A stretch of DNA of 64,000 nucleotides from Fibrobacter succinogenes (GTDB lineage: Bacteria; Fibrobacterota; Fibrobacteria; Fibrobacterales; Fibrobacteraceae): NCBI GenBank assembly GCA_902762795.1, contig CACWPM010000005.1, positions 1 through 64,000 on the forward strand, in the 5' to 3' direction. Made by a program: the position numbers and the translations under genes. The notes beneath the pieces were generated by a model. That model saw only the letters and a program-made list of their open reading frames with translations, was not told the origin of the DNA and ran no database searches. Positions within the stretch are counted from its first letter, which is position 1. Every line of letters starts with the position of its first letter. Positions 42,728-43,573 of the stretch are shown here, piece by piece.

Positions 42728-42780
42728 AATGAAGTCCGATATTTAAAGGTTTATACGCAGGGAAAGATAGCATTTTAGAG

Positions 42781-42922
42781 CTTAGAACTTAGAACTTAGA
42801 GCTTAGAAATTGGTTGTTAGTAGGCAGTAGACAGTGGATGGTGGGATGGATTGTCATCCTGGAGCAGTCATCCTCGAACGACGTGAGGATTTTTCAGTAG
42901 GAAGTAGACTGTAGGAAGTTTG
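42781..42922. repeat. three successive heptad tracts of different unit
   Basis: CTTAGAA-type units at 42781-42808, TAGGCAG/TAGACAG/TGGATGG units at 42814-42849 and CAGTAGG/AAGTAGA/CTGTAGG units at 42895-42922. The last two are separated by a GTCATCCT...GTGAGGAT repeat piece (42852-42890). Confidence 0.8.
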
Positions 42923-43020
42923 CTGCGTCATCCAGACGCTGAAGATGGTATAGAATTGTTGTCAATTCATTGGCTTACAATTCTTAAGCTCTCATGGGCT
43001 AAGGATCCAGTTAAGTCTGC

Positions 43021-43040
43021 TTTACGATGTTTTTTTTCAA
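43021..43040 (+). repeat. 20-bp direct repeat, left copy, bounding the inverted-repeat array
   Basis: TTTACGATGTTTTTTTTCAA; it recurs with one change at 43512-43531. T-rich, so chance similarity is possible, but the TTTACGATGT head is not low-complexity. Confidence 0.55.
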
Positions 43041-43212
43041 TCATTTTTCATCAAAGTCGCACCACATCGAACGTCCAGAGAACAACTACAAAAAAGCTGT
43101 CGTCGCAGGTAAGAAAATCGCTAGAATAAATTCAAACTAGTTGTCCGTAAAGTCTAAAAAACATGCCACGGAATTGTTCATAATACTCTTCTTTAGCGTT
43201 TTTTTTTGCTTC

Positions 43213-43482
43213 AGTACCTATAAAACAGATTATAATGAAGTTTTATAGGTACTGAGAACTCTTTTTTTTATTCCGTACCTATAAATCCCTAAGAGCAACG
43301 CTTTTATAGGTACGTTTTTCTGTTTTTACACATAAGTTAAGTGCGAAAATACCTATAAAAATGATTTATCGCGTTGTTTATAGGTACAAGTACAATGAAA
43401 TTCACCTTGCGATAGCCTCGATGAATTGAAAATAACCTGTTTTGTACCTATAAAAGCACATAAAATCAAGATTTATAGGTAC
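43213..43482. repeat. array of four inverted repeats GTACCTATAAA-N17-TTTATAGGTAC
   Basis: Units: 43214-43252, 43275-43313, 43349-43387 (first base A instead of G) and 43444-43482. In every unit the left 11-mer starts exactly 28 bp before the right 11-mer, leaving a 17-nt spacer whose sequence differs in all four. In unit 1 the pairing extends to 14 bp. Gaps between units grow: 22, 35, 56 bp. No repeat or Cas-like gene lies nearby. It could be paired protein sites, recombination sites or RNA hairpins with variable loops; nothing in the window decides this. Confidence 0.9.
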
Positions 43483-43511
43483 GAACTTCCGAATTGTCTT
43501 AAATTTTGAGT

Positions 43512-43531
43512 TTTACGATGTCTTTTTTCAA
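43512..43531 (+). repeat. 20-bp direct repeat, right copy
   Basis: TTTACGATGTCTTTTTTCAA, one substitution from 43021-43040. The two copies enclose about 470 bp containing all four inverted repeats. Confidence 0.55.
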
Positions 43532-43573
43532 ATTATTTACACCAATTGTGTTAGATTGAATTATTTTTAGGGT

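Follow-up and report, generated by a model that had tools for sequence, protein, structure and literature searches.

The DNA analysed here, a stretch of 64,000 nucleotides from Fibrobacter succinogenes that we call the window, contains at 43213-43482 an array of four inverted repeats, which lies inside a segment that appears to have been inserted between its present neighbours (Table 1). The preliminary description of this DNA had reported an identical 28-bp geometry for the four units, and we confirm it: the arms stand 28 bp apart around a 17-nt spacer in 4/4 units, with none expected from shuffled sequence. The arms agree with that description, except that the outer base of the first arm of unit 3 is changed, giving ATACC and not GTACC. 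The gaps between the units (22, 35 and 56 bp) had been taken as variable. They are not arbitrary, since the units follow each other at whole helical turns when the distances are measured from centre to centre.

Table 1. Features of the array and its surroundings, in window coordinates.
Feature	Coordinates	Strand	Description
Flanking direct repeat, left copy, ~40 bp	43011..43054	+	34/47 identical to the right copy
Likely donor-derived left flank	43054..43213	+	Includes the rluD 3' end; 125/173 identical to L018:4854-5022
Putative inserted segment	43055..43508	+	Four-unit array between a tail from the rluD-array-uvrD locus and a shared right edge of about 25 bp
Unit 1	43214..43252	.	Inverted repeat GTACCTATAAA-N17-TTTATAGGTAC
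Unit 2	43275..43313	.	Centre 61 bp after that of unit 1 (about 6 turns)
Unit 3	43349..43387	.	Centre 74 bp after that of unit 2 (about 7 turns); ATACCTATAAA as first arm
Unit 4	43444..43482	.	Centre 95 bp after that of unit 3 (about 9 turns)
Flanking direct repeat, right copy	43499..43545	+	First ~9 bases overlap the likely donor-derived right edge

The helical repeat of DNA is about 10.5 bp. Across the window's genome (G000) the centre-to-centre distances are 61-64, 74-75, 84-86, 94-97 and 168 bp, which correspond to 6, 7, 8, 9 and 16 turns, and the phasing holds in arrays that are alike in their arms alone (R = 0.93 at 10.5 bp, 14 distances). Two more dispersed array families with other arm words are phased in 21/21 and 13/13 distances, and among 41 arrays of two phyla that lie beside the gene described below, all 100 distances are no more than a quarter turn from a multiple of 10.5 bp. 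Such phasing is the property expected of proteins that sit on one face of duplex DNA. In the Eubacteriales genome S27M_St_58, the arrays of four loci (L114, L111, L079 and L121) have 6-7 units at a spacing of exactly 84 bp with related inter-unit sequence, and therefore local tandem growth also occurs. Another array (L197:3970-4473) consists of three repeats of about 201 bp, each a two-unit pair with distances of 64 and 137 bp, and is a case of tandem amplification that preserves the helical phase.

We looked for copies elsewhere in the genome with unrelated spacing, which according to the preliminary description would make this an ordinary palindromic repeat. This concern does not apply, because the other genomic copies keep the 28-bp geometry, which is seen about 35 times outside the window array. 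When 18-nt spacers are counted as well, the total for the genome rises to 54 units, grouped by three or four into 15 arrays that all lie between genes. The constant spacer of 17 nt is thus true of the window, and genome-wide it is 17 nt in 39 units and 18 nt in 15. Nor is the spacer sequence free, as had been proposed. Its central five bases are 81-90% A/T, AAA or TTT stands at its centre in 41 of the 54 units (17 expected), and spacers at matching positions of homologous array copies are related, also between species. Homology among nine of the genome's arrays extends over about 350 bp and includes the inter-unit sequence. We conclude that the spacers are inherited and copied, not acquired.

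None of the 15 arrays overlaps an open reading frame of at least 100 aa, and their flanking gene pairs are convergent (5), tandem (8) or divergent (2), with unrelated functions. Operators of a regulon were rejected as an explanation, because the neighbours are unrelated genes in every orientation and five of the 15 arrays lie between convergent genes. The complementary arms would allow hairpins on either strand, and a system at the RNA level, in which transcribed arrays give hairpins whose variable loops serve as guides or processing sites, is one of the options that had been raised. It is very improbable, because the spacers are inherited and copied and the phasing between units, which has no role in RNA, points to duplex DNA. 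Moreover, the spacers are common by position and share a central A/T tract, the arrays lie between genes in every orientation, and Rfam gave weak sub-threshold matches only, with no family near its gathering score. CRISPR and TIGR-type guide arrays have foreign-derived, strain-variable spacers, unlike those seen here, which are common by position among copies and between species, and because they are shared and inherited we do not regard the array as a guide array. Among the proteins that flank the 15 arrays no Cas- or Tas-like family is found. Inverted arms around a spacer would also suit a site-specific recombinase with exchangeable spacers. The core of strand exchange is far shorter than a spacer of 17-18 nt. 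As the spacers (17-19 nt) exceed such a core and no recombinase recurs near arrays or genes, this option is hardly credible; the gene that does recur encodes a protein with a nuclease fold. Among the three options first offered, paired protein-binding sites come closest.

We searched for the protein by scanning genome contigs for the arms and their geometry and then comparing all proteins near the arrays. The same arms and geometry occur in rumen and gut Clostridia and in Fibrobacter, and one protein family of about 270 aa adjoins an array in both phyla. In the window's genome its gene (G000:C37) has its start 139 bp from an array; it could not be found in the earlier reading because it lies outside the window. 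Pfam and NCBIfam gave sub-threshold matches only and PHROGs weak ones only, and none of their models spans the protein in full. The last ~110 residues match the nuclease end of the PADLOC model PDC-S68 (E about 1e-24). In an AlphaFold2 model of moderate confidence (pLDDT 79, pTM 0.50), residues 166-273 show the order of elements of a PD-(D/E)xK nuclease, with an alpha-beta-beta-beta-alpha-beta core. The fold matches of this C-terminal domain, which include TnsA, VRR_NUC, Hjc and Vsr at Z 6-7, with TnsA (Z 7.1, 114 residues) among the best, are weak if taken alone, as a Z near 7 lies under the level of a safe match. Foldseek by itself gave no confident match. The motifs RSKSE, PDF and WEH-G are present, and at least 67 of 68 relatives retain E170, PD201, E216, H217 and K168. 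Because the element order of the model and the fold matches combine with these conserved positions, we regard the assignment of the C-terminal domain to the PD-(D/E)xK superfamily, as a predicted nuclease, as firm. We assign no fold to the N-terminal module, since a second look with VIA ranked nuclease folds alongside unrelated coiled coils for its helices. In homologs at G000:C9:95153-96064, G040:C28 and G009:C28 the match is split near residue 187, and there are extra residues inside the nuclease domain.

The family model matches 28 of 41 Fibrobacter genomes, often several times per genome, a few of them weakly and via larger proteins. A phased inverted-repeat array of at least three units lies upstream of 35 of 46 Fibrobacter genes, and one of two units upstream of six more; three of the remaining five have an array downstream instead. 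The same upstream arrangement, with at least three units, is found for 19 of 22 full-length Clostridia genes, and shuffled controls of the genes of both groups gave no array in nearly every case. Several genes are flanked on both sides by directly repeated arrays. The arm word varies among paralogs while the geometry stays constant, as seen for TACCTATAA, TTACGTACT, TTACATACT, GGGCGTATAA, TGCTACCAA, TTACTTGC, CCGACTAA and GGTAACAAA; these words and the array counts beside genes come from our own scan with fixed thresholds. At one locus (L186:2593-5776) about 1.7 kb of other DNA separates the downstream array from the gene and its upstream array, whereas in the orthologs L182 and L190 the downstream array lies within about 150 bp, so an insertion between gene and downstream array is possible.

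Outside Fibrobacter, the protein family turned up once more among 121 genomes of the phylum, in another member of the same bacterial family. The genomes that gave a single match in the exact scan, from Paludibacteraceae, Fusobacteria and Clostridium (G052-G054), do not contain the gene; their matches look like chance, and we rejected them. No relative was confirmed in viral contigs and no full-length match was found in plasmids. One relative (32% identity) is encoded at MT839528.1:380-1120, in an unannotated record of 4.2 kb named 'Bacteriophage sp.' from human faeces, which is possibly a chromosomal fragment. The family is thus essentially absent from phages and plasmids, and we rejected an origin from either.

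These observations bear on a role in defence, in which the nuclease would attack DNA, the arrays would mark the host chromosome as self or store the enzyme, and conflict with phages would drive changes of specificity. PDC-S68, whose nuclease end the C-terminal domain resembles, is a candidate defence protein, and the module that would confer specificity is varied. Yet the gene stands alone, the next best recurrent gene within about 1.5-3 kb being found at 3 of 51 loci. Full-length relatives are missing from viral contigs and plasmids, apart from the 4.2-kb phage record, and many paralogs each have their own word. Copies inserted together with donor flank would be unexpected for self marks. We consider such a role improbable. 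The family also differs from PDC-S68, with which it shares sequence over the last ~110 residues, in that the models of the latter are about 1200 aa long, whereas in the present proteins the domain follows a short N-terminal module and is associated with a DNA array.

The preliminary description had suggested that something reads both arms at a fixed distance, and this is now well supported, as the arm word covaries with one part of the protein. Protein distance correlates with word distance (Mantel r = 0.42, which thinning lowers to 0.35; 0 of 2000 shuffles). Among close relatives, different words go with extra divergence in residues 1-68 only: residues 41-68 diverge by 0.55 versus 0.32, and there is no excess in residues 69-268. 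Because they differ there only, residues 1-68 probably read the arm. For example, the proteins of L160 and L165 are nearly identical except in the first ~68 residues, where their differences are concentrated, and have quite different words; they look like a case in which the N-terminus, as a specificity module, was swapped and the word changed. The same word is never used twice within a genome (0 versus 4.6 repeats expected), and this is only suggestive of a rule that two pairs sharing one word cannot coexist, since we merged words manually and the genes are non-independent.

In Fibrobacter, dispersed arrays are also nearly confined to the genomes in which the gene with their word is present. 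Arrays of TTACGTACT are found in the three genomes with the gene (38, 18 and 58 units) and as one unit in one of 38 others, and arrays of TTACATACY in 6 of 6 genomes with the gene and in three others with 1-9 units. For TACCTATAAA the arrays likewise co-occur with the gene. Over the three words the co-occurrence gives Fisher p = 4e-4, 2e-5 and 2e-4, values which are guides only because relatives are non-independent. In one Clostridia genome, 68 exact units accompany a single gene. Four genomes (G019, G006, G028 and G038) carry a few arrays each and no matching gene. Perhaps the gene has been lost there or the assembly is incomplete; as many of the genomes are metagenome assemblies, absence of the gene can be a gap. 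In G019, whose genome is 88% complete, there are nine TTACATAC units and no matching gene was found; they are either orphan arrays after gene loss or the result of a gap.

The clearest case of movement is the window array itself. The inserted segment is homologous on both sides to L018, the rluD-array-uvrD locus of the same genome (G000:C4), and it is absent at the same place in G001, G004 and G014. The flanking repeat of about 40 bp is single where G001 and G038 have an empty site, and we read it as a target duplication. The repeat was read from alignments, because its copies are 72% identical, and for the same reason the insertion appears old and its limits approximate. L018 is the likely donor, since the window copy holds the rluD end of L018 and G019 and G038 carry the L018 array too. 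At the window, L016, L018 and L028 loci there are close relatives that keep the neighbouring genes without the array, and at L028 G038 has 26 bp compared with about 448 in the window's genome. The evidence for movement is strongest for one copy, that in the window; at the other loci with conserved flanks the boundaries are blurred. Our reading is that copying placed the window array, together with some flank of the donor, in a staggered break, although the movement could come from ordinary recombination or repair instead of the nuclease.

On balance, we think that the window array is a solo copy, moved away from the gene, of the cognate array of a PD-(D/E)xK nuclease-like protein, and that phased binding of dimers, cutting and copying by repair lie behind it. 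Comparison of sequences shows the pairing of gene and array, the phasing, the coupling of the word to residues 1-68, the occurrence of same-word arrays mainly with the gene, and intergenic insertion. Nearly all genes of the family have beside them an array with a word of their own, usually upstream and sometimes on both sides, mostly of at least three units. The further steps are proposed as follows. Each unit would be bound by a dimer whose residues 1-68 recognise an arm, and the A/T-rich centre of the spacer may permit a bend. Several dimers on one face of the DNA could then assemble into a complex, and the predicted nuclease domain, with its conserved active-site residues, would cut DNA. 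Repair would copy the array, sometimes with donor flank, into a new intergenic site. Binding at its own array may also control the gene. Overall, this would be a REP/RAYT-like way of working with an unrelated enzyme that acts on duplex DNA.

As an alternative, the role could be architectural or regulatory. A chromosomal DNA-binding factor might fold, bridge or silence DNA at phased arrays and control its own gene. Ordinary duplication would then spread the arrays, their usefulness would preserve them, and the nuclease fold would serve binding or another task. Strict phasing even in arrays alike in their arms alone, the position of arrays next to the gene, the central A/T tract and the absence of a partner gene agree well with this. 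We nevertheless find it unlikely. At least 67 of the 68 proteins retain the nuclease residues, the neighbours of the arrays are unrelated genes in every orientation, the copy number and places of arrays differ between close relatives, and the specificity changes often, unlike that of a core nucleoid protein.

Among the nearest known systems are the REP/REPIN-RAYT systems (REPtron, TnpA-REP), in which dispersed intergenic repeats depend on one chromosomal gene for many copies, repeats lie beside that gene and genomes with the gene have more copies (PMC8049555, PMC8266576); a REP is defined as a palindrome preceded by a GTAG-type tetranucleotide (PMC8266576). Many dispersed intergenic copies with a cognate gene are found here too, in 15 arrays and with co-occurrence in three families. 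However, the enzyme has a PD-(D/E)xK fold and is not a Y1/HUH transposase, the arm GTACCTATAAA is non-palindromic by itself and lacks GTAG, the units form helically phased arrays, and there are many paralogs with different words. A Y1 transposase was rejected as the agent, as Y1_Tnp (PF01797) is absent from several genomes with many arrays (G006, G038, G041 and G042). Since the enzyme fold differs, GTAG is absent and the arms are not palindromic, we do not count the system as a member of REP/RAYT.

Transposon ends carry several phased binding sites, which several sites on one DNA face recall, and the C-terminal fold match to TnsA is a further likeness to Tn7. On the other hand, no TnsB-type partner recurs beside the gene and the arrays do not form two inverted ends. 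The target duplication is about 40 bp, whereas that of Tn7 is 5 bp. As there is no partner gene, we do not regard this as a Tn7-like element. Homing endonuclease genes share with the present system a nuclease gene beside its recognition DNA and the copying of donor flank, and they differ from it in that here the array alone is copied to many sites and gene-side arrays keep their units intact, uninterrupted by the gene.

This is apparently a gene-plus-repeat system of an undescribed kind, in two phyla and mostly in gut and rumen bacteria. We rate at about even chances the wider claim of an undescribed class built on a modular PD-(D/E)xK nuclease that makes chromosomal copies of its phased binding arrays and changes target by an N-terminal swap, so that distinct gene-array families coexist per genome, in Fibrobacterota and Clostridia. 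Searches of open-licence papers, which do not include subscription journals and most preprints, turned up no prior description, and one may exist elsewhere. If true, chromosomes would have a second way, unrelated to RAYT transposases, to keep and spread short repeats, and the list of proteins that may be reprogrammable would gain a small, specific DNA binder that has a nuclease domain. Natural pairs of a protein with its DNA word number in the dozens, and the part likely to confer specificity is mapped (residues 1-68), so a recognition code is directly testable.

If true, the system would also account for one class of the repeats that are dispersed in the genomes of gut and rumen bacteria. The window contains at 42775-42810 short near-tandem motifs (TTAGAACTTAGAGC; GTAGGCAGTAGACGG; GTGGTTAGTAAACAG) that recur in the intergenic DNA of several Fibrobacter genomes, with copies at L232 and L233, and are possibly another class of dispersed intergenic repeat.
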